A stretch of DNA of 64,000 nucleotides from Bdellovibrionales bacterium CG10_big_fil_rev_8_21_14_0_10_45_34. GTDB lineage: Bacteria; Bdellovibrionota; Bdellovibrionia; Bdellovibrionales; 1-14-0-10-45-34. The notes under the pieces were generated by a model. That model was not told the origin of the DNA. It ran no database searches and worked only from the letters and a program-made list of their open reading frames with translations. The translations under genes were made by a program, and so were the position numbers. Shown here piece by piece: positions 16,523-59,237 of the stretch (its first letter is position 1; each line of letters opens with the position of its first letter). The stretch spans positions 508 through 64,507 of the forward strand of contig PEZS01000005.1 of NCBI GenBank assembly GCA_002778785.1. The letters run 5' to 3'.

Positions 16523-17062
16523 TCAGCGAGCCTTCAGTTCGCTTTCAAGTACGCGAATAAGCGTTTTAAGGTCTACGATTTCTTCGCGAAGCATAAAAAT
16601 CTGCTCTTCTTTTTCTTTGAGTATCGTTCCGTAGGCGGCCCTGACCTCTTCGAAAAGCTTTTCCGTAAGATGGTTGCCTGAGATGGCTTTCATTTTGGAA
16701 GCCGACGTGTTTTGAGGTTTTGTTTCAACCGCAAACGTCGGTAGTGCACGCCCTGCGTAGCCACCTGCCACTTGCTCAGAAACGGATTCAAACGTTTCCT
16801 CGGCAAGGCTGCCGTCGAAGTTCAACATCGCAAGCCCATTAGAAGGTTTAAGCGGTGTGCGGCCCCTTTTTGCTCTCTTCTTCGGTTGATCGCTCTCTTT
16901 TTCTGCTGAAAGCTGAATAACATCTTTAAAGGGGATGTCAGGAACAAGATATCGCCCCGAATCAGACTTACACTTTAGGGTGTTCGACCTGATTCGCCTT
17001 CTCAGGGTAGAGACACTCACCCCATACTTATTTGAATACTCAACTAAACCTAACCATTCCAT
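16523..17062 (-). CDS. HTH plus coiled-coil DNA-binding protein, RacA-like in layout
   Basis: 179 residues. The N-terminus (about 5-45, YSNKYGVSVSTLRRRIRSN then GRYLVPDI) is a MerR/excisionase-like winged helix-turn-helix. A basic linker (PKKRAKRGR, about residue 62) and a Ser/Thr/Ala-rich middle follow. The last 45 residues are a heptad coiled coil (LKEKEEQIFMLREEIVDL). This order and length resemble Bacillus RacA, which binds palindromes near the origin and anchors the chromosome; I claim similarity of layout, not homology. Eight copies of a 10-bp palindrome run from its first codons through the upstream region, suggesting that it controls itself. It is read towards pckA, with a 104-bp gap. 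A plain transcription regulator is the alternative. Confidence 0.65.
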   Translation of the reverse strand: MEWLGLVEYSNKYGVSVSTLRRRIRSNTLKCKSDSGRYLVPDIPFKDVIQLSAEKESDQPKKRAKRGRTPLKPSNGLAMLNFDGSLAEETFESVSEQVAGGYAGRALPTFAVETKPQNTSASKMKAISGNHLTEKLFEEVRAAYGTILKEKEEQIFMLREEIVDLKTLIRVLESELKAR

Positions 17063-17239
17063 GGATACTCACGATTATTCAGAGCAAAACGTTGATTGAC
17101 AAGGAAAAGCTGCTACATCGGCTATTCTTTACTTTGGATAGCCCTTTGGCTAGCGTGGATACCCACTCGATATTTTTGGCTATCCACTTTAATCTTTGGC
17201 TATCCATGTGGATACTCATCCTCGACTTTTGGATAGCCA
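17033..17239. repeat. cluster of TGRNTANYCA palindromes upstream of the HTH/coiled-coil gene
   Basis: Sites start at 17033 (TGAATACTCA), 17062 (TGGATACTCA), 17135 (TGGATAGCCC, 9/10), 17156 (TGGATACCCA), 17177 and 17197 (both TGGCTATCCA), 17209 (TGGATACTCA) and 17230 (TGGATAGCCA). Steps from 17135 onward are 21, 21, 20, 12 and 21 bp, so most sites lie on one face of the helix. The cluster fills the divergent region between the HTH gene and the patatin gene and overlaps the HTH start codon. The same motif recurs at 48.7 kb and 50.5-50.9 kb. Confidence 0.75.
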
Positions 17240-17284: not shown

Positions 17285-18529
17285 TTGATATTATCGGCGC
17301 CATCCAACTATGATGTTATCGTGAAGAAAATCCGCGAAAAGAGACAGATTGCATTGGTGTTAAGTGGCGGCGGAATCAAAGCCGCGGCTTTTCACATTGG
17401 GGTCTGCATGGCCCTCCATGAAAAGGGGTTTCGATTTCGTGGCGGCATGCGAACCGAAGGTGAAAGACCCGACCCAGTTGCAAAATTCCCTTTAGAAATC
17501 GCAACCTTCGTAGGTTCGTCAGCTGGAGCAATTATTAGTTCTATACTCGCCTCCGGCTACTCGATTAGCGATTTGTTACATGCTTTTGAAATTGAAACCG
17601 GAACAAAAAAGGCCATGAGGGGGTTTAATACTCCGTCGGGCCTTCGAAAAATTACTTATTTTGATATTTTTTCGATCAATCGAAATGGTCTTTTTAGGCT
17701 GGTGCCCGATTTTATGCGTCGTAAGTCTTTAGTCAGCGGCGGCATAGAGGCTCTCTTAAAATATGGCTTTAAGGTAAATGGGCTTTTCACCACCCGAGGA
17801 ATTGAGAGATATCTTCGTGAAGCGGTTCTTCCAACGAATGATTTTCATCTGCTCGATTGCGCACTTTATATTGTTGCCACGCAGTTAAATCACAGCCGAA
17901 AAGCTATCTTTGGGCCTTATGACGAATACGTTAAAAAAGACGACATCAAACTTGTTAACTGGGCGTCCATTAGTGAGTCTGTCGCTGCGTCGGCAAGTCT
18001 CCCGCCCGTGTTTTCTCCTTACGGCATTCGAAACCCTAAAGGTAAAACGATTTATTTTTTTGACGGAGAGATCCGCGACACCCTATCGACCCACGCGGCT
18101 ACCGACTCTGGAGCCGATCTGGTGATTGCAAGTTATTCGATCCAGCCCTATCACTTTAACTCGGTGATCGGATCACTTCACAGGTTCGGAATACCTATCA
18201 TTGCCAATCAGGCTCTCTACCAAGTTGTCGAACAAAAAATTAAGAGGCATATCCAGCATCAGGGTGATATTCGAGCTACGATTAATATTGTAGAAGGCTA
18301 TTGCAGAGAAAACGACATCGCCGATGAGCACCGTACCCGACTGGTAGATGCTTTATCGAAAAGACTCAACTACCGGGCGGCCGTGGACTACATGTATATT
18401 CACCCACACCCTCAAGACTACGACTTCTTTTTTGCCGACCACTTTAGCCTCAACGGAAATATCTTAAACAAAATCGTGATGAGCGGATTCAAGTCAGCGC
18501 TTCGCACCCTCCGCCGCTACAACTTTTAG
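17285..18529 (+). CDS. patatin-like phospholipase
   Basis: Lipid acyl hydrolase of the patatin fold. The oxyanion-hole motif SGGGIKAAAFHIGV is near the start and the nucleophile elbow GSSAG about 50 residues later. The dyad Asp is probably in FFDGEIRDTL, where the common DGG/DGA is replaced by DGE. No signal peptide is present, so it is cytoplasmic or exported by another route. TTG at 17285 has AGAGG 6 nt upstream and is my choice; a GTG at 17321 lacks any ribosome binding site. Its upstream region is the palindrome cluster, so it may share regulation with the HTH gene. Stops of this gene and the converging one overlap (18526-18529). Confidence 0.85.
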   Translation: MILSAPSNYDVIVKKIREKRQIALVLSGGGIKAAAFHIGVCMALHEKGFRFRGGMRTEGERPDPVAKFPLEIATFVGSSAGAIISSILASGYSISDLLHAFEIETGTKKAMRGFNTPSGLRKITYFDIFSINRNGLFRLVPDFMRRKSLVSGGIEALLKYGFKVNGLFTTRGIERYLREAVLPTNDFHLLDCALYIVATQLNHSRKAIFGPYDEYVKKDDIKLVNWASISESVAASASLPPVFSPYGIRNPKGKTIYFFDGEIRDTLSTHAATDSGADLVIASYSIQPYHFNSVIGSLHRFGIPIIANQALYQVVEQKIKRHIQHQGDIRATINIVEGYCRENDIADEHRTRLVDALSKRLNYRAAVDYMYIHPHPQDYDFFFADHFSLNGNILNKIVMSGFKSALRTLRRYNF

Positions 18530-19692: not shown

Positions 19693-19743
19693 GTGCCAGG
19701 TCCAATTCGTGGAAGCGACGCTTCCACGAATTGGACCTGGCAC
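19693..19743. repeat. REP-like perfect palindrome (25-bp arms, 1-nt loop)
   Basis: Left arm 19693-19717 (begins GTGCCAGGTCC) and right arm 19719-19743 are exact reverse complements around a single A. It sits 1 bp after the stop of nuoN. A T-run lies only on the left side (19685-19690), which is the wrong side for a plus-strand terminator and reads as A on the minus strand. This suggests a REP/BIME-type or small MITE-like element rather than an ordinary terminator. It may still stabilise the 3' end of the nuo transcript. I saw no second copy in the window. Confidence 0.7.
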
Positions 19744-32808: not shown

Positions 32809-35800
32809 GTGAGATATTCGGATTTTTATGCACTTTTGAATCGCGCTTGTTTAAATAGCCGATTTGTACATGTTACCGGCACCGCCTCTGAGTTAGCGGC
32901 CTCGAAGTGGTTGACCGACTTGAGTTGCCAAATTCAAGGTGGGCCCATTGTCGTCGTAGCGGCGGATACCTCTTCGCTCGATCGCTTTGATGAAGGGCTG
33001 TCGTTTTGGGGCGGAAGTATTTCAAGTTGTCGACTTGAAGAGATGGATGTCGGCCCATACTCAGGGTTAGCACCGCACCGTCAAAGAATTGGAGAAAGAT
33101 GCCGCTGGTTGTTTTCAGCCTTGAATCTGCAGCAAAACAAGGTTCTGAGTGCTACGTTACCCGGTCTTGCTCAACGAACGAGCCCTGTCGACTATTTTCT
33201 CGGTCACTGCCATGAACTTCGCATCGGGACTGATTTACCCGAGGGGTTTGTGTCACTGCTTATTAAAATGGGCTACTACGCAAGCCCAAAGGTTGAAGAT
33301 GTCGGCCAATATTCCATTCGCGGAGGTATAATTGACCTTTTCAGCCCGGCCTATCTGTCCCCTGTACGAATTGAGCTATTTGGAGATCAGATTGAATCTG
33401 CACGGCTTTTTGATCCTTTAAGTCAAAGATCGCTCCAAAGCGTAGAAAAACTTTGGATTATCCCTTCAAGAGAGGTTTCACTCGAACCGGAATATCGAAT
33501 GGCGGCGGCACGCAGCATTAAAGATCGATTCCCCGATGGCTCTGCCGTTCAGGAGATACAAAATCAACTGAGCCTGGGCGCTAATTTTGACTGTGTCGAC
33601 TTTTTGGTTTCTGATTTTTTTGATCAAGATACGAGCGCGGTAGATTATATTCCCACTGGGGCAACAATATTGTGGCTCGATTCTATTGAATGTAACCAAA
33701 GCTTCGAATCGTTTTTGGTTTCAGAAGCGAGGGCTTTTGAAAAGTCTGCGGGCGAGATTTTTTCACCTCCTCCTGATCGCTTTTATGAAAAGAGTATCCG
33801 AACGATTTTGGATAGCCAGTTTCGGCGCATAGAGCTTAACAGAATTCGATTGGAAGAAGGTGACGAATCAGAATCGCACCTTTTAACGTATAGAACTCAG
33901 CCCTTTCGCACGCTAAATGCCGATCATCTACCTTTAACTAATCCTGACCTTCAGAAGAGAGTACGAGCGAAACTTCAAGAGTTTTTAGAGAATCAAATTG
34001 GGGTCGTTGTTACCTGTGGGTCCGAGCTCCAGTTGCAGCGAATGAGTCACTTCATGGAAGTTTTATCTCTTCCTCTAGAAATCGTGAAGGGGCCAATCGA
34101 AGACTTGTCGCATAACACGATACATTTGGCTTCGGCCGAAATCTCTGTTTCTGAAGTCGACTTAGAGAGTCGAACCGCCTTTTTAAGAGATCAGGATTTT
34201 CTTGGGGACCGAGCTGCCAGGCGGTTGGGTGCCGGCCAATCGAAAACCACTTCAGCCCAGAAAGCCCTGGAGACTTTTTCGCATTTAGACCTTGAATCAG
34301 GTCAGGTGGTAGTTCACAAGGATCACGGAATTTGCATTTTCGACGGCTTAAAGACGATCGAGGTACAAGGTATACCTGCCGAGTTTTTGGTGCTTCGCTT
34401 TAAAGACCAAGACAAGCTCTATTTGCCAACATATCGAGTGGGATTGATTCAGAAGTTTGAAGGCTCCCCTGCACTAGACAAGCTTGGTGGCACGGCTTGG
34501 TTGAGAACCAAGATTAAGGTAAAGAATCATCTCAGAGATATTGCCTCTGAACTTCTTAAACTCTACGCAATTCGCTCACAGGCTGAACGCGAAGCTTACC
34601 CTCCCGTCGATGAAGACTACTTGGCGTTTGAAAGCGCGTTCCCTTACGAGGAAACTCAAGATCAGCTGCGTGCTATTGACGAAATCAACTCAGATCTTGA
34701 ACTCGTGCGCCCAATGGACAGACTCGTTTGCGGAGACGTTGGTTTTGGAAAGACTGAAGTTGCCATGAGAGCGGCTTTTCGTTGTGCAAAAGAAGGTCGG
34801 CAGGTTGCGGTGCTTGTTCCAACAACCGTTCTCTGTTTTCAACACCTAGAATCCTTCAGAAAAAGATTTCACGGGTGGCCTTTGCGCATTGAATCGCTTA
34901 GTCGCTTCACGAGCCCTGCAGATTCAAAGAAGACTCTCCACGACTTGTCTGAAGGAAAAGTCGATATCGTAATTGGTACTCACCGACTGCTCAGCCAAGA
35001 TATTAAGTTCCAACGGCTCGGACTCATTGTCGTTGATGAAGAACAAAGATTTGGCGTCAGCCACAAGGAGAAGCTTCGTAATTTGCGTAAGACCGTCGAT
35101 ACACTCAGTATGTCGGCCACACCGATCCCGAGAACTCTCAACCTAAGCCTTTCGGGAATTCGAGATCTGAGTTTGATTGGAACTCCTCCAAAAGGTCGCT
35201 TACCTACAAGAACGTTTATTTCTAAGTATGATGAAGAAACGATTAGAAAAGCAATTCTCGGCGAAATGGAGCGCGGCGGGCAAATTTTTTATATTCACAA
35301 TCGTGTTCAATCTATTTACTCGGTTGCAGACGAATTGAGAACACTTGTGCCAGAAGCGAGGGTTATCATTGGGCATGGGCAGTTGCCCGAGAGAGAGCTC
35401 GAAAGGGTTATGGTCGACTTTTATTCTCACAAGTCTGATGTTTTACTTTCTACAACGATAATTGAAAGTGGATTAGATATTCCGCGCGCAAATACGATGA
35501 TCGTTGATCAGGCTCAGAACTACGGCCTTTCTCAGCTGTATCAGCTTCGCGGGCGCATAGGCCGAGGTAAAGATCGCGGGTATTGTTATCTAATAATTCC
35601 TCATGGCCGAGTTCTTGATTCCGCAGCTCAAGAGCGCCTGCGCGTACTTCAGCAAAATTCCGAACTCGGCAGTGGTTTTATAATTGCTCAGCATGATTTA
35701 GAGATGAGAGGCTCTGGCAATCTGCTTGGTGAGGAACAAAGTGGTTTTGCCAATTCAGTCGGATACGAACTCTACATGGAACTGCTTCAAGAGGCGATAG

Positions 35801-47276: not shown

Positions 47277-47645
47277 TTACGCGTCCGCTTTCGGCATGTA
47301 AGAGGCACCTTCGAAGACGACACCCTCATCAATTCTTAAACTCGGAGTCGTCACGCTACCCCTGAAAATGGCTGGAGGGTGCATAATGACTTTGCGCTTA
47401 GCAAAGACGTGGCCCTTAACCTCGCCCGAAATCACGACTGAATCCGCCTCAATCTGAGCTTCAACAATAGCGCCAGGGTCTATGATCAAAGTATCGCGAG
47501 TGAAGATTTCGCCCTTGAAGTGGCCACCAATTCGAACTGTACCTTCAAAAGTGAGGTTACCCTCAAAAAACGCTCCTTGATCCAGAAGTGCAGTGACCTG
47601 TCTGGTAGATACTTTCTCTTCATCTGTCAGGGCAAGTGAGCTCAC
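47277..47645 (-). CDS. bactofilin
   Basis: 122 residues, right-handed beta-helix cytoskeletal protein (DUF583). The repeating turns GAFFEGNLTFEGTVRIGGHF, GEIFTRDTLIIDPGAIVEAQ, DSVVISGEVKGHVFAKRKV and so on show the regular V-x-I-x-G pattern. Short tails, no membrane segment. Located 5 bp downstream of parB and upstream of the atp genes; in Myxococcus a bactofilin scaffolds the ParAB-PadC system, so a link to chromosome segregation is plausible here. Confidence 0.9.
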   Translation of the reverse strand: MSSLALTDEEKVSTRQVTALLDQGAFFEGNLTFEGTVRIGGHFKGEIFTRDTLIIDPGAIVEAQIEADSVVISGEVKGHVFAKRKVIMHPPAIFRGSVTTPSLRIDEGVVFEGASYMPKADA

Positions 47646-47650
47646 AGCTA

Positions 47651-48640
47651 TTAACCTCGCAGCGCCTTTAAGGATCCGGTTATTCCTTCGAACTGGTCAT
47701 CACTATGAAAGCGAATTTTAATCCAGCCTGAGCCCTCATTGTAATCGAATTTCACTTGAGTGCGCAGCTTATTTTCGAGTTCTTTTTCAAGGGAAGCAAG
47801 TGCTCGACCAACGGGGGAGTCGAGTGAAGCGCCCGAGGGCACCTTTTCTTTAAGTGGTTTTTGTTTTTTTAATAAGTCTTCAAGCGCTCGCACAGAGAGT
47901 TTTTGATCTACACATATTTGTGAAATTCTTTTTAGCTCTTCTGTATCTTCGATAGAAAGAAGCACTTTAGCATGTCCAAACGAAATTCTTTTCTCTGACA
48001 AAGCCTTCTGTACTTCATCAGGTAGGCTCAAAAGTCTCATCGTATTTGTCACCGAGCTTCTGTCTTTTCCCACTTTTTCAGAGATTTCCTGATGACTTAG
48101 CTTGAATTCCATAGCTAGCCGCTGGAAGGCTTTCGCAAGTTCGAGCGGACTCAAATCTTCTCGCTGAATATTTTCGATGAGGGCTCTCTCAAAAATACTT
48201 TGCTCGCCAACTTGTTGCACGATAACTGGGATTTCTTTTAATTGCGCCTTCTGAGCAGCTCTCCAGCGCCTCTCACCAGCAATAATCTCGAACGTGCCTG
48301 GCACTTTCGCATCTTGCCTTACAAGTATTGGTTGCAAAATTCCGTGTTGCCGAATGGACTGCGCCAACTCTTCGATGTGAATTGGCTCAAAAAATTTTCT
48401 TGGCTGAAGAGGATTGGGGCGAACCTTTTCAATTCCAACCTGATAAATCATTTGTCCAATAGTTTTAGCAGTAGAAGATGTTTGCGCCGCAGACGTTCCT
48501 TGAGCCGACTTTCCGGCATTTGCGCCCGAATTATTGGCAGAAGGTGCTTCTTCGGGGCCTTGCTCAGCATTAGAAATGAGCAAGCTTCCAAGGCCTCGGC
48601 CCAAACCCCGCTTTGCTGAAACTTTATCAACGCTCGACAT
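47651..48640 (-). CDS. parB: chromosome-partitioning protein ParB
   Basis: 329 residues. The N-terminus (GLGRGLGSLL) contains the short motif that stimulates ParA ATPase, then about 60 disordered residues rich in Ser/Ala/Asn. The CTPase/nuclease-like fold carries GERRWRAA and ENIQREDLSPLE, followed by the HTH (HQEISEKVGKDRSSVTN) and a C-terminal dimer domain. It overlaps parA by 14 bp. Two parS-like sites lie at 49641 and 50527. Confidence 0.96.
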   Translation of the reverse strand: MSSVDKVSAKRGLGRGLGSLLISNAEQGPEEAPSANNSGANAGKSAQGTSAAQTSSTAKTIGQMIYQVGIEKVRPNPLQPRKFFEPIHIEELAQSIRQHGILQPILVRQDAKVPGTFEIIAGERRWRAAQKAQLKEIPVIVQQVGEQSIFERALIENIQREDLSPLELAKAFQRLAMEFKLSHQEISEKVGKDRSSVTNTMRLLSLPDEVQKALSEKRISFGHAKVLLSIEDTEELKRISQICVDQKLSVRALEDLLKKQKPLKEKVPSGASLDSPVGRALASLEKELENKLRTQVKFDYNEGSGWIKIRFHSDDQFEGITGSLKALRG

Positions 48641-49598
48641 TATCCCTCCGCTCGCTACTTATTGGTGATTGAGTACCCTGTGAAACCTGAGTATCCACAC
48701 TTTGCCCATGGCTATCCACTGCTCTGCCGGACGCTGCAACTATCCGATTTTCCTTGGTTTTTTCTATCTGAATATTCACATTGTGACCACTTTGGATATT
48801 CATACTGGCGCGGTTAGTCTTTCCTGTCTCCAAACTCACTCGATTATCAAGCTCTTCTGCGAGTTCTACATATCTAATTGCACCAATAGATTTAGGGTCG
48901 TACTCCAGAATAGATAGCCCGTGGCTCGGCGCCTCGCTCAGCCTAACGTTTCTAGGTATTACGGTCTTAAAGACTTTGTCACCGAAATGACTAGAGATTT
49001 CTGAAACAACTTGATGAGACAAATTGTTTCGAGAATCAAACATTGTAAGGATAATACCTTCTATTTTTAACTGAGGATTTAAGCCTTTCTTGATGAGGCC
49101 CGCCGTATTAAGCAGCTGAGAAAGCCCTTCGAGGGCGTAGTATTCACATTGAAGTGGAACCGCAAACGTATCCGCAGCGGAAAGTGCGTTAAGAGTTAAA
49201 AGCCCCAAAGAAGGGGGACAATCTATAATAATATAATCATATCTTGAGGTGAGCGGAGTCAGCGCATCTTTCAGCCGATATTCCCGGCGATTCATATCCA
49301 CCAGTTCTATCTCTGCGCCCACTAAATTCGGATTTGCAATGGCGATGTCTAAATTTCTGATGGGGGTCGAGATAAGCACTTCGCTCAACGTCCGCTCCCC
49401 AATCAGCACTTGGTAAATCGTAGAATCTTCGAACTCATGTCTTTTTATTCCGACACCGCTAGAAGCATTCCCTTGGGGATCCATATCGATCAACAATACG
49501 CTCCTACCAAGCTGACACAGTGCGGCAGAGAGATTGACGGATGTTGTTGTTTTACCGACTCCGCCCTTCTGGTTTGCTATACAGATTGTTCTCGCCAT
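48627..49598 (-). CDS. parA: chromosome-partitioning ATPase ParA with C-terminal tail
   Basis: 323 residues. Deviant Walker A KGGVGKTTTS, Walker A' DMDPQGNAS and IDCPPSLG mark a Soj/ParA ATPase without an N-terminal HTH. Typical Soj proteins end near residue 255; here a polar tail of about 65 residues follows (MNIQSGHNVNIQIEKT, AVDSHGQSVDTQ). The DNA for this tail carries several TGRNTANYCA palindromes, so the tail may exist to accommodate them. The ATG is preceded by the parS-like intergenic region. Confidence 0.95.
   Translation of the reverse strand: MARTICIANQKGGVGKTTTSVNLSAALCQLGRSVLLIDMDPQGNASSGVGIKRHEFEDSTIYQVLIGERTLSEVLISTPIRNLDIAIANPNLVGAEIELVDMNRREYRLKDALTPLTSRYDYIIIDCPPSLGLLTLNALSAADTFAVPLQCEYYALEGLSQLLNTAGLIKKGLNPQLKIEGIILTMFDSRNNLSHQVVSEISSHFGDKVFKTVIPRNVRLSEAPSHGLSILEYDPKSIGAIRYVELAEELDNRVSLETGKTNRASMNIQSGHNVNIQIEKTKENRIVAASGRAVDSHGQSVDTQVSQGTQSPISSERRDNVER
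48688..48802. repeat. TGRNTANYCA palindromes in the 3' part of parA
   Basis: Exact sites start at 48688 (TGAGTATCCA), 48709 (TGGCTATCCA), 48769 (TGAATATTCA) and 48793 (TGGATATTCA). A 9/10 match starts at 48670 (TGAGTACCCT). 48688 and 48709 are 21 bp apart, as in the 17.1-kb cluster. All lie in the DNA for the ParA tail, which encodes the repeated V-D-S/T-H/Q pattern. Confidence 0.7.
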
Positions 49599-49640: not shown

Positions 49641-49654
49641 GTTCCATGTAGAAC
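49641..49654. promoter_or_regulatory. parS-like site between parA and the divergent lipoprotein gene
   Basis: GTTCCATGTAGAAC, with a T in front, resembles the universal parS (TGTTTCACGTGAAACA): both half-sites keep the GTT/AAC ends and the central C-A-x-G-T. Position 43 bp upstream of parA, near the origin, supports it. Centre bases deviate (ATGTA for ACGTG). Confidence 0.55.
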
Positions 49655-49781
49655 GATCAGAAACAAGCAGGAGTGTGAAGTTTTTCCAATTTTTGTCCGA
49701 TAAAGTCATAGATCACCTAGACTTTTGACGGTGTTTTCTTGGGATCTACTGGGGGAGTTGTTGAGAATCCAATGTTTTAGG

Positions 49782-50324
49782 ATGAACGGACTTTCGACTC
49801 TTCGATACCCTTCACATATCGGTGTAAGCTTTCGATTCGCCCTTTTTTGTGCTTTGGCTTGTGTCATTCTTTCCTCGTGTGACAAGCCAAATCCAACTCC
49901 AGAACTGAGTGATCCCATCTACAGAGAACTTCAAACCGCACATGGATTAGTCGTGAAAGACGTAGCGGAAGCAGAAAAAGAACTTCTAGAGGCAAAAGAG
50001 GCTCTCAACACTATAATTCCTCAAACGCGAGACAGAAAACAAAAGACATCCGCCTATTTCAATACGAAAAAGAAGCTTAGACTGCTTAAAGAAAGAGAAG
50101 TTTACTTTTCCGAAAGGCTCAAAACTCGCCGAATTGATGATAGAAGATCCTACTTGGAAGCGTACCGTGCCAAGGAGCCTTGGCCAAACCCTCAAGAGGC
50201 GAAGGATTACAACACTCACATGCGCCTTCGAACTGAACTAATAGACTGGTCTCGGCGCGCGCCGGCTTCAGAGCCAAAAAAATCCGAGAAGGCCAATGAA
50301 ACGCCTAAAAAGGCTGAACACTAA
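49782..50324 (+). CDS. lipoprotein with coiled-coil domain
   Basis: From ATG at 49782 a basic N-terminus and hydrophobic core end in LSSC, a lipobox. The mature part, about 145 residues, is highly charged and helical (VKDVAEAEKELLEAKEALN), followed by a Pro/Lys/Glu-rich end. A TTG at 49761 with GGGGGAG upstream is an alternative start. Unknown family. It is the only plus-strand gene between parA and rsmG, splitting the usual rsmG-parA order. Confidence 0.6.
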   Translation: MNGLSTLRYPSHIGVSFRFALFCALACVILSSCDKPNPTPELSDPIYRELQTAHGLVVKDVAEAEKELLEAKEALNTIIPQTRDRKQKTSAYFNTKKKLRLLKEREVYFSERLKTRRIDDRRSYLEAYRAKEPWPNPQEAKDYNTHMRLRTELIDWSRRAPASEPKKSEKANETPKKAEH

Positions 50325-50442: not shown

Positions 50443-51093
50443 TCAGCGCCCTTCGGCAGCTTTTTTCCAGAATAGTAGGCGAAGACCGACCTTAGCGGGA
50501 GTTGAGTATTCAACTTGACTATCCAAGTTCCACGTAGAACCATGTAATGTAGTCAACTCTTCTGAATACTCAGGTCCCTTCCACATGACTATCCAACTTC
50601 CGGCATTAGTCAGTGGGTCTAACCATTCAAGTTGCTGCTGAATGCTTGAAAACCCCCTTGAAACAGCAAAGTCTATAGGACCAGAAACATTTCTCAAGTC
50701 TTCTGCGACGACAAAAACCCGTTTCAAATCCATCAGATAGGCAATTCTGCGGAGAATTTCAGCTTTTTTTTTGTCTCTTTCGACTAAATGGATATCCAGA
50801 TCTAGTTGAGTAGCCAAAATTAAGCCCGGAAAACCATTGCCACTGCCCAAATCCCATAGTTTTTGGATATCCAACCTAGTTTTGGATATCCAATTTTTGA
50901 GTATCCAAGCGCCCTTTAGGCTATCCAAAAAGTGCACCTGATCAATCTGACTGACAGTGCCAGAGCCAATAAGATTGGTAGTCCGCTGATATCTTAAGAT
51001 TTCCTGCTTCATGACTTCTAACTTAGAGGCCTGCTTATCAGTTAGTGAAGCTCCCTCCGCCAAAATCAAGTCCTTCAAAGACATTGGTAACAC
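50443..51093 (-). CDS. rsmG: 16S rRNA (guanine527-N7) methyltransferase RsmG
   Basis: 216 residues. The SAM-binding motif LGSGNGFPGL and the following VERDKKKAEILRRIA are as expected for RsmG/GidB, as is SRGFSS. It lies 1 bp after mnmG. Unusually, the gene is crowded with ten TGRNTANYCA-type palindromes and one parS-like site, which constrain its codons (for example the repeated GGATATCC within codons for D-I-Q and W-I-S-K). Confidence 0.94.
   Translation of the reverse strand: MLPMSLKDLILAEGASLTDKQASKLEVMKQEILRYQRTTNLIGSGTVSQIDQVHFLDSLKGAWILKNWISKTRLDIQKLWDLGSGNGFPGLILATQLDLDIHLVERDKKKAEILRRIAYLMDLKRVFVVAEDLRNVSGPIDFAVSRGFSSIQQQLEWLDPLTNAGSWIVMWKGPEYSEELTTLHGSTWNLDSQVEYSTPAKVGLRLLFWKKAAEGR
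50503..50927. repeat. TGRNTANYCA palindrome cluster inside rsmG
   Basis: Exact sites start at 50503 (TGAGTATTCA), 50516 and 50586 (TGACTATCCA), 50563 (TGAATACTCA), 50789, 50864 and 50883 (TGGATATCCA), 50807 (TGAGTAGCCA) and 50898 (TGAGTATCCA); 50918 (AGGCTATCCA) matches at 9 of 10. The TGACTATCCA at 50516-50525 lies 1 bp from the parS-like site at 50527. Random expectation for this motif is about four in the whole window (equal base use), so nine in 425 bp is far from chance. Confidence 0.78.
50527..50540. promoter_or_regulatory. parS-like site inside rsmG
   Basis: GTTCCACGTAGAAC keeps the central CACGT of parS and both outer half-sites. It is closer to consensus than the site at 49641. ParB binding sites inside coding regions near the origin are common. 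Flanked by the palindromes at 50516 and 50563. Confidence 0.6.
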
Positions 51094-51094
51094 C

Positions 51095-53026
51095 TCAGCC
51101 TAGAACTTCGCTTGAGGGCGGTGGCGATCTCTTGGCAGTGGGATTTTGTTTGTGTGCCTTTAGATATATGAAGAGTATTTGAATTGCAGACGGGTTTACT
51201 CCACTTATTCTTACTGCGTCCGCAAGAGTGCGCGGTTTTGATGCGCTCAGTTTTTCTTTTTCCTCAACTTTGAGCCCTTGAATTTTTGAGTAGTCAAAGT
51301 CTTCAGGGATGACTATCTCCATTCGACGATTCACCATTTCGAGGATTTCCATCTGCTTCTTGATATAGCCTTCATATCGGATTTCAATTTCAGCGCTCTC
51401 ACGGGCCTCCACACCAAACTCACTTAGGCCAGGATCAAAGTGGTACAAATCATCGAATTTTATCTCAGGGCGCTTGAGAAAGCTTGCTAGACTAGTTGGC
51501 TTCAAAAGGGGAGAGGAGCCAAGTTGCGTGATTTTCTCTTGTGTTAAACCGTTTGGAACAATCACCTTCTTTTGAAGTCTTAACTTGAGTGCTTCTCTAG
51601 TGCTCTTAAGTGCCTCTAATCTCTCAGTTGTTTTTAAACTCAATACCCCAAGTCCAATGCTTTGCCCGCGCAGCCGATCCCACGTGTTGTCTTCGCGAAG
51701 GTGTAGCCGGTGTTCAGCGCGAGAAGTGAACATACGGTAAGGCTCAGACGTCCCTTTGTTTACTAAATCATCAATCAACACACCTATATAGGCTTCATGA
51801 CGCCCGAGAGTGAATTCGCCTTTTCCTTGGGCCATCAGCGAAGCATTTACGCCGCCAATAAATCCCTGAACAGCCGCCTCTTCGTAACCGCTTGTTCCAT
51901 TTATTTGGCCTGCTAAAAACAAACCCGAGATGCCCTTTGTTTCCAAAGTCTTTTTTAGCTGCGTGGGCTCAAGAAAATCATATTCGACGGCATAGCCGAA
52001 TTTGAGAAACTTCACATTCCGAAGCGCTGGTATCGACCTAACAAATTGATCCTGTGTCTCGGCCGGCAAACTCGTAGAAATTCCCTGGAGATAAATGGAA
52101 TTTGTATTTATTCCCTCTGGCTCCAAAAAGGTTTGGTGCCGTGATTTAGTTGCAAATCTAACAACCTTATCTTCAATACTTGGGCAATATCGCGGACCTT
52201 TGCCTTCGATTTCACCGCTATAAATCGGCGACAAATGCAGATTCTTTCTAATAAAGTCGTGCGTTTCCTCATTTGTGTGAGTTAAAAAACACTCCACCTG
52301 CGGAAGCGCCAACTGAGCATGGCTGCGAAACGAAAAAGGATAAAAAATTTCATCTCCGCCTTGTGGCTCCGTGAGGCTAAAATCAATCGAATTCGCATCA
52401 AGCCTCGGTGGAGTTCCGGTTTTCAATCGGTGAACTTGAAAACCTTCGGCTCGCAGCTGATCTGACAAACCTGAAGTGGCTTTGTCTCCCACTCTTCCGC
52501 CTGAAGTTTTCTCACGTCCCACATGCATGACAGCATTCATAAAGGTGCCGGCTGTAATCACTACACATCTTGAGAGTACTTGGCTCCCATCGCCGACGAT
52601 GACCCCACGACAAGTGCCTTTCTCTAATAGAAGACCTTTTACTTCTGCTTCTATCAAATCAATCCGGTGTTCGTTGTTTAAAATATTCGACATGTAGCGG
52701 GAATAAAGATCTTTGTCGCATTGACTTCGGCTTCCACGAACAGCCGGGCCCTTCTTAGCGTTTAGGCGTCTGAACTGTATACAGCTTGAGTCAGCGGCCA
52801 TTCCCATTTCACCGCCCAGTGCATCTAGCTCTCTCACCATGTGTCCCTTAGCCAGACCGCCGATCGCAGGGTTACAGCTCATATACCCTATGCGCTTTAG
52901 ATTCGTAGTGATAACGAGCACTCTAGAACCCAAGCGGGCGGCACTGAGCGCAGCTTCTATGCCCGCGTGCCCCGCACCTACTACAACGACATCAAATTCT
53001 TTCGTTAAAGCCAATCTGCTCTCCAA
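51095..53026 (-). CDS. mnmG: tRNA uridine 5-carboxymethylaminomethyl modification enzyme MnmG (GidA)
   Basis: 643 residues. The FAD-binding GAGHAGIEAALSAARLG opens the protein, followed by the MnmG signature NPAIGGLAKGHMVRELDALGG (in two parts) and a C-terminal helical domain that contacts MnmE. It installs the wobble-uridine cmnm5 group with MnmE, encoded 60 bp upstream. The last residues (KRSPPPSSEVLG) are a short polar extra tail. Confidence 0.97.
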   Translation of the reverse strand: MESRLALTKEFDVVVVGAGHAGIEAALSAARLGSRVLVITTNLKRIGYMSCNPAIGGLAKGHMVRELDALGGEMGMAADSSCIQFRRLNAKKGPAVRGSRSQCDKDLYSRYMSNILNNEHRIDLIEAEVKGLLLEKGTCRGVIVGDGSQVLSRCVVITAGTFMNAVMHVGREKTSGGRVGDKATSGLSDQLRAEGFQVHRLKTGTPPRLDANSIDFSLTEPQGGDEIFYPFSFRSHAQLALPQVECFLTHTNEETHDFIRKNLHLSPIYSGEIEGKGPRYCPSIEDKVVRFATKSRHQTFLEPEGINTNSIYLQGISTSLPAETQDQFVRSIPALRNVKFLKFGYAVEYDFLEPTQLKKTLETKGISGLFLAGQINGTSGYEEAAVQGFIGGVNASLMAQGKGEFTLGRHEAYIGVLIDDLVNKGTSEPYRMFTSRAEHRLHLREDNTWDRLRGQSIGLGVLSLKTTERLEALKSTREALKLRLQKKVIVPNGLTQEKITQLGSSPLLKPTSLASFLKRPEIKFDDLYHFDPGLSEFGVEARESAEIEIRYEGYIKKQMEILEMVNRRMEIVIPEDFDYSKIQGLKVEEKEKLSASKPRTLADAVRISGVNPSAIQILFIYLKAHKQNPTAKRSPPPSSEVLG

Positions 53027-57664: not shown

Positions 57665-57821
57665 GATACGACTCCTGATTCGACCGTAGATTTCGACAAT
57701 AATGAGAAAAATCGGAAACTGCGTGAATCAAACATGACGCGCGTTTGCCTGTCAAGTTATTGAATGTTCTTGAACCTTTTGATAGCAGCTAGTGGGCGGT
57801 TCGAGCGTTGGGGGGAGTCGT

Positions 57822-59237
57822 TTGGAAGCAAACCTTTGGGAAAGCATCAAAACGAGTTTACGCCAGAAAAACCCTGAAAACCGGGGCCTTGATACTTGGA
57901 TAAACCCAGTCAGACTGGGTGGCTTTGAGGACACCTCGAGCGGTCGACGTATTAAACTTCTTGTGCCCTCTGAACTCCATGAATATTGGATCTCCCAACA
58001 CCTACTCGATCAAATTTGTGCAGAGATCGCGCAAATATATAAGACTCCATTTACGGTGGAGCTAGTTGTATCGGCAGATGGTCCCTCCGAGCTTTCCCAT
58101 GATGAACAGCAGGGCTCTTCGCTGGCCGCTTCAAATCAAAGTTGGAATACAGTATCTCAGCCGACTGTCTCTGTTGGGCCATCTGCCCAACCGTCTCCTG
58201 TCAGGCACGATTTTTTGAACCGCGACTATACCTTTGGAACCTTCGTCGTTGGCAGAAACAACGAATTTGCTCACGCGGCCTCCTTTTCGGTGGCAGAAAA
58301 CCCAGGCGGCAAATACAACCCACTTTTTATATGCGGTCCTACGGGAATGGGGAAAACCCACCTCCTCAATGCCGTCGGTAACTTTATCGCCAGCACGCGA
58401 CCGGATCTGCGTATTCGCTATATAGCTGCCGAACGCTTTCTTACCGAGTGCGTGGCGGGGATCCGTCATGGTGATATGGAGAAGTTTCGCCAGCGCTATC
58501 GCGAAAAGAGTGACGTTTTGCTGATGGATGATATTCAGGTTCTCGGACGAGGAGAAACCGTTCAAGAGGAGTTCTTTAATACTCTTAATAATTTCTTTGA
58601 GAAAAATGGCCAGGTCGTTGTCGCCAGTGATCGGATGCCTAAGGATATTCAGGGTTTAGAAGATCGAATCCGTACGCGACTTGAATGGGGGCTTATTGCC
58701 GACATTCAAATGCCCGAAATTGAAACCCGTGTGGCCATTTTAAGATACAAGGCGGAGCAAAGAGGCATCAATTTACCGGATGAAGTCGTCAGTTTTATAG
58801 CTAGAATTTCTAGGCGTTCGATCCGAGAGCTTGAAGGTAATCTTAATAAAGTAAAGATGTTCACAGACTTTCAGGGCATCCCTATCGGTCTTGATGTGGT
58901 GAAACAGATTCTGGCCACTCATTTTTCGGAAGTGAGTCAGCTCACCACTGAGGACATTCAGAAAATTGTCTCTCAGCATTATCAAATAAAACAGATGGAT
59001 CTTAAATCAAATACTCGATCGAAACCTATCGTCATGGCCCGGCAAATGGCGATGTATTTGGCCAAAAAGTACCTCGATAAATCTCTTACAGATATTGGAA
59101 GATCTTTTGGGGGGAGAGACCACACGACGGTAATTAATGCACTGCGCCGGGTAAAGGATCAACTAGATAAAAATACGGAAATCAAGAGAGATCTCCAGGA
59201 CTTAGAAAGCAGAATCCACAATATCACAGGGTTGTGA
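57822..59237 (+). CDS. dnaA: replication initiator DnaA
   Basis: TTG at 57822 follows GGGGGGAG at a 4-5 nt spacing and gives the usual N-terminus (EANLWESIKTSL). A GTG at 57792, ten codons upstream, is less likely. Domain order: N-terminal DnaB/self-interaction domain, variable linker (about 95-135), AAA+ with Walker A GPTGMGKTH and Walker B VLLMDDIQ, then DNA-binding domain IV with the GGRDHTTVINALRR signature. About 471 residues. Confidence 0.97.
   Translation: MEANLWESIKTSLRQKNPENRGLDTWINPVRLGGFEDTSSGRRIKLLVPSELHEYWISQHLLDQICAEIAQIYKTPFTVELVVSADGPSELSHDEQQGSSLAASNQSWNTVSQPTVSVGPSAQPSPVRHDFLNRDYTFGTFVVGRNNEFAHAASFSVAENPGGKYNPLFICGPTGMGKTHLLNAVGNFIASTRPDLRIRYIAAERFLTECVAGIRHGDMEKFRQRYREKSDVLLMDDIQVLGRGETVQEEFFNTLNNFFEKNGQVVVASDRMPKDIQGLEDRIRTRLEWGLIADIQMPEIETRVAILRYKAEQRGINLPDEVVSFIARISRRSIRELEGNLNKVKMFTDFQGIPIGLDVVKQILATHFSEVSQLTTEDIQKIVSQHYQIKQMDLKSNTRSKPIVMARQMAMYLAKKYLDKSLTDIGRSFGGRDHTTVINALRRVKDQLDKNTEIKRDLQDLESRIHNITGL

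Follow-up and report, generated by a model that had tools for sequence, protein, structure and literature searches.

The stretch of DNA analysed in this study (the window, 64,000 nucleotides) contains dnaA, rsmG, parA, parB and a bactofilin gene, and on its reverse strand, at 16523-17062, it carries an ORF that starts with ATG and codes for a protein of 179 amino acids. The position and length of this ORF, taken from the ORF list, are as given in the initial annotation. The dnaA gene (57792-59237, forward strand) served as the zero point for distances. parB (47651-48640) and parA (48627-49598) are both on the reverse strand, and the bactofilin gene (47277-47645, reverse strand) adjoins parB. 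A gene for a patatin-like phospholipase (17285-18529, forward strand) is divergent from the ORF, and the predicted operator region is common to both. Of 70 related loci, 66 have patatin as the divergent neighbour; the operator region may thus serve both genes. In the genome pairs compared with both genes on one contig, about 14-57 kb separate the gene from parB. In five complete genomes (G018, G044, G004, G003 and G009) it is found 31-44 kb before the end of the record; since parS is about 8 kb away from this end, the end was regarded as dnaA-proximal. At 19693-19743 the window also has a perfect inverted repeat of 51 nt, with 25-nt arms, a 1-nt loop and no T run after it, which is possibly a REP-like element.

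The protein was studied by AlphaFold prediction (with 66 sequences as input), family alignment and Foldseek search. Residues 1-54 are predicted to form a winged HTH (wHTH) of the MerR type, with block pLDDT values of 89-97 over residues 1-50. A single C-terminal helix of 49 residues (130-178, block pLDDT 92-97) is predicted in the monomer, and the alignment shows a conserved heptad-like region there, as expected for a coiled coil. The two are joined by a disordered linker and have no fixed mutual placement in the model (pTM 0.35). The layout proposed earlier, an N-terminal HTH, a linker and a C-terminal coiled coil, is borne out by the ORF and the structure prediction. The predicted structure has the beta wing that characterizes the MerR/BldC/Xis-type wHTH superfamily, and the Pfam match to HTH_17 is weak (E 0.023).

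Family alignment showed two conserved blocks, (D/E)YSxKYxVSxSTLRRRIK...GKY at the N-terminus and ELKKAYxxILQEKEEQIxxLKEEVxDLKTLVRVLE at the C-terminus, connected by a variable linker. A single-sequence search recovered the gene from 135 of 143 Bdellovibrionia genomes, and a profile search from 311 of 368 Bdellovibrionota genomes. Scanning the genome contigs with the single protein gave no match, and an alignment-based scan was needed to find the homologs. None of the Pfam, NCBIfam and PDB sequence families matches above the cut-off. The weak matches are to excisionase/MerR-type HTH domains, and 7 of 27 members match a PHROG excisionase/regulator family. DUF3972 was rejected as the identity of the family, as one member matched at 8e-6 yet no DUF3972 match was obtained in the host genome; TMF_TATA_bd and other Pfam matches resemble coiled-coil noise. 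The protein thus belongs to a conserved, unnamed family of Bdellovibrionota that is covered by no named Pfam or NCBIfam family. The host genome (3.06 Mb) belongs to Bdellovibrionia, the class being assigned from related records, and is the sole member of its taxonomic family among the genomes compared. Beyond the class, the coiled coil of the homologs is shorter. One record with a member of the family (L044, a MAG) is titled Streptomyces griseus, and this title is probably wrong.

The region around the start of the gene is rich in palindromes. Exact matches to TGRNTANYCA begin at 17033, 17062, 17156, 17177, 17197, 17209 and 17230, and two sites with one mismatch, at 17072 and 17135, bring the number to nine; the eight palindromes reported earlier for the first codons and the upstream region were therefore right to within one. 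Two of them sit in or over the first codons: TGAATACTCA (17033-17042) falls on the codons for (D/E)YS and TGGATACTCA (17062-17071) overlaps the start codon. Further upstream come a near-site with one mismatch, TGGATAGCCC (17135-17144), and a predicted operator array of five exact sites (17156-17239). Over codons 8-10, where one conserved predicted operator lies, the choice of codons is constrained: Ser10 is encoded by TCA in 54 of 63 loci, as compared to 17% of the other serines in the same genes (nominal p ~1e-29). This bias suggests that the DNA itself, and not the protein alone, is under selection. Helical phasing of the operators (10.5 bp) was looked for and none emerged.

The motif was derived de novo by counting words in the orthologous upstream regions, without the motif of the initial annotation. 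The words obtained, TGACTACTCA, TGAATACTCA, TGAATATCCA, TGACTATCCA and words like TGGATAGCCA, give the consensus TGRNTANYCA. In the discovery set there were 73 sites in 15.6 kb of upstream DNA against 21 in 84.8 kb of flanks. The consensus was then applied to 59 unseen loci that have no sequence in common with the discovery set, and a site was present in 56 of them. When the coding part was excluded, 52 of 58 loci still had a site, as expected for an autoregulator with conserved putative operators upstream of its own gene. The non-coding DNA of these loci has 96 sites over 21.0 kb, compared with 61 over 1.01 Mb of flanks, a 76-fold density (nominal p ~1e-119, as related loci are not fully independent, which does not affect the fold change). 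Eight permuted motifs gave 0-2 matches each in the same loci. Outside the class, a site was found in 5 of 17 upstream regions; an eighteenth locus, L271, was excluded because its reading frame was wrong. The initial annotation had suggested a look at the phylogenetic co-occurrence of gene and motif, and across the class the two do occur together. Its proposal that this protein reads the palindrome and regulates its own gene is strongly supported by the comparison of sequences, that is, by the class-wide co-occurrence, the 76-fold density and the constrained codons.

In the whole host genome 161 matches were counted, against 156 for the reversed motif, and the two counts were broadly equal in 15 other genomes as well. 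Specific sites in excess over the chromosome, which would mark a global nucleoid-associated protein, were thus not seen in these 16 genomes, and compaction of the whole nucleoid through specific sites was rejected. On the 106-kb origin contig, however, 34 of the 161 matches are found where 5.6 are expected (p 4e-16). With an array taken as three or more sites in 500 bp, the genome has only four, of 4-9 sites each, and all lie on this contig within 41 kb of dnaA. Apart from the own-gene array (seven sites), these are an array of four sites at the 3' end of parA, in its variable C-terminal tail just before parB (48688-48802), one of nine sites in rsmG (50503-50907) and one of six sites 39 kb beyond dnaA on the other side, outside the window (G000:C5:97230-97523). 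The last three are all inside coding sequence. When 161 sites were placed at random, only 5% of the trials produced any cluster of three in 500 bp, and none of 5000 placements exceeded three clusters, against the four observed. The rsmG and parA clusters described earlier have the same motif as the sites at the gene itself, and no array lies outside the origin region.

The rsmG array flanks a parS-like sequence on both sides. This sequence, GTTCCACGTAGAAC (50527-50540), has one mismatch to the parS consensus and is 1 bp from the motif site at 50516-50525; a second, GTTCCATGTAGAAC (49641-49654), has two mismatches. The consensus itself, GTTCCACGTGGAAC, is exact in most related genomes, and in G139 (L194), another genome with origin arrays, the parS sites are similarly diverged. 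An unnamed lipoprotein-like ORF (49725-50324) between the two parS-like sites is in the position of bd3907 of B. bacteriovorus. The fourth array is inside another small lipoprotein-like ORF (L130 12520-13077), which comes after a transaldolase-like gene. Other matches in the window include the site TGAGTAGTCA at the 3' end of mnmG (51287-51296) and a single site TGGATAGCCA inside mfd (33809-33818). Two arrays lie at -40.8 and +39.2 kb from the origin, but this apparent symmetry was given no weight, as it is present in one genome only and absent in three others.

Arrays recur in genomes of other families. In eight further origin regions of 100 kb, three arrays were found in G139, two each in G122 and G064 and one each in G067 and G142. 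In G139, G122 and G064 one of the arrays is the operator region of the gene itself, and an array at the parA/parB junction is present in G139, G064 and G067. Six control motifs formed no cluster in the same regions (800 kb), and no motif arrays were seen in five distant regions. The 60 parB-parA-parS-rsmG regions compared contain 18 sites at the parA/parB junction, spread over 10 genomes, where the controls average 1.3; near parS, at no more than 150 bp from it, there are 14 (control 2.5). Most of the 60 genomes, including most of the Bdellovibrio-like ones, have no sites at the junction or near parS, and the Bdellovibrio-like G018, G003, G006 and G009 contain the gene but lack exact sites for several kb around parS. 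The self-operators are class-wide; the origin arrays are recurrent but patchy. If the protein were needed for anchoring the origin, arrays might be expected everywhere, and autoregulation is therefore the only role conserved in the whole class. The absence of parAB arrays from most Bdellovibrio-like genomes that have the gene argues against a universal tether.

The initial annotation had called the protein RacA-like, adding that there was no sequence proof of homology. In layout and fold the likeness holds. The RacA-DNA complex (5i44) ranks first in Foldseek (probability 0.96), but the E-value of about 0.1 is weak and its score is equalled by those of BldC, Xis and MerR proteins (Z 5.4-5.9). 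In sequence it does not hold: a profile of 27 family members detected no RacA chain among the PDB sequences up to E 10, and none of the 25 NCBIfam families listed is a RacA model. Like RacA of Bacillus subtilis (PMC6593407, PMC5859096), the protein has an N-terminal MerR-type wHTH (by AlphaFold and Foldseek) and a C-terminal coiled coil, and its putative sites are concentrated near the origin. The motif itself is unlike that of RacA: TGRNTANYCA is centred on TA, and the RacA site is GC-rich. RacA also works with DivIVA in sporulation; the present system has few arrays and strong self-operators, and involves no spore. An arginine of RacA contacts a pyrimidine-G step (PMC5859096), and a similar mode of reading would be consistent with the invariant arginines of the HTH and with the motif's invariant TG/CA ends. 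A RacA-like function can be regarded as a good hypothesis, with a chance of being right that is a little under even.

Similar combinations are known from other systems. RocS of Streptococcus pneumoniae and Par of the staphylococcal plasmid pSK1 have a MerR-type wHTH and a coiled coil and act in DNA segregation (PMC11500499), but RocS ends with an amphipathic helix for the membrane, whereas in the 179-aa protein the coiled coil forms the end. TubY, from type III plasmid partition, has a MerR-like HTH and a C-terminal coiled coil and is a DNA-binding regulator joined to a centromere complex (PMC7762940), but it has a lysine-rich membrane tail and a plasmid TubZ/TubR context, whereas the present gene is chromosomal and beside none of these. 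KfrA of broad-host-range plasmids differs in being plasmid-borne and mostly alpha-helical. BldC, phage Xis and MerR regulators have the same wHTH fold, but BldC lacks a coiled coil and binds direct repeats, Xis acts in recombination and classical MerR proteins carry effector domains.

We propose that the protein, presumably as a dimer, reads the palindrome TGRNTANYCA with its MerR-type wHTH. By sitting on several operators over the start codon and upstream of it, it would control its own gene and probably the divergent patatin gene too; that it is the reader of the motif and an autoregulator is very probable. In the host genome it would also load on the arrays at the 3' end of parA, around parS in rsmG and in the lipoprotein gene, and such occupancy is likely. 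The coiled coils could bridge the arrays into a nucleoprotein complex at the origin. Beside ParB/parS, this complex may help to keep the centromere organised or anchored, or to gate it. Tethering of the origin, as raised in the initial annotation, is plausible, and contacts with ParB, bactofilin or the pole would be conceivable. A local architectural role is suggested by the location of the sites within coding DNA near the origin and by the lack of clusters in the rest of the genome, though on balance this part of the proposal falls slightly short of an even chance. As a whole, a reader and autoregulator that also shapes the origin appears somewhat more probable than not.

The strongest competitor is an ordinary transcription factor with a small regulon, which would repress itself and patatin and tune parAB from the parA/parB junction and from near its promoter, with no architectural or tethering role. 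The autoregulatory operators are the sole class-wide feature, the junction is the strongest recurrent second target, and transcription of parAB in B. bacteriovorus is under cell-cycle control by an unknown regulator (PMC10547168), all of which would suit such a factor. Against it speak the arrays in rsmG (nine sites) and the lipoprotein gene (six), which are inside coding sequence and away from promoters, and the position of every array near the origin; we give it a substantial but clearly minority probability. It could also be argued that another DNA-binding protein reads the palindrome and regulates the gene while the HTH protein binds elsewhere, as co-location by itself cannot name the reader. 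This is quite improbable, because the gene and its operators are the class-wide constant, the gene encodes a DNA-binding fold known for such sites, and a motif with no genome-wide excess fits an autoregulator and not a wide regulator.

A more specific role would be the gating of parS, in which sites beside parS block the loading of ParB in the non-replicating phase and the protein is the 'Bdellovibrio-specific factor' proposed for B. bacteriovorus. In that species, parS flanks of 242 and 330 bp prevent ParB from forming foci during attack phase, an effect ascribed to an unknown factor (PMC10547168), and in the host genome the nine sites surround a parS with one of them only 1 bp away. As the parS flanks of Bdellovibrio-like genomes have no exact site, the protein would need other or degenerate sites in the very species where the effect was measured, and this role is unlikely. 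That the origin arrays are an artefact of chance or composition is hardly credible; the motif is short and degenerate and its genome-wide counts equal the controls, but random placement rarely gives even one array and there are four, all on the origin contig, and control motifs have no cluster in 800 kb.

A complex that anchors the origin is a gap in the literature consulted (PMC11318664), and so is the factor acting through the parS flanks of B. bacteriovorus (PMC10547168). Judged by its predicted sites, the protein is the weaker match to the latter, because those flanks have no exact site in Bdellovibrio-like genomes. It is possible, if rather doubtful, that palindrome arrays and a MerR-type HTH/coiled-coil reader constitute a second chromosomal centromere-like system beside ParABS in Bdellovibrionota, anchoring or gating the origin. 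With one conserved gene, a probable motif and exact arrays named, both the origin-anchoring and the parS-flank questions become testable. The protein is a candidate for the factor that organises or anchors the origin in the Bdellovibrionota, predatory-type bacteria with non-binary division.
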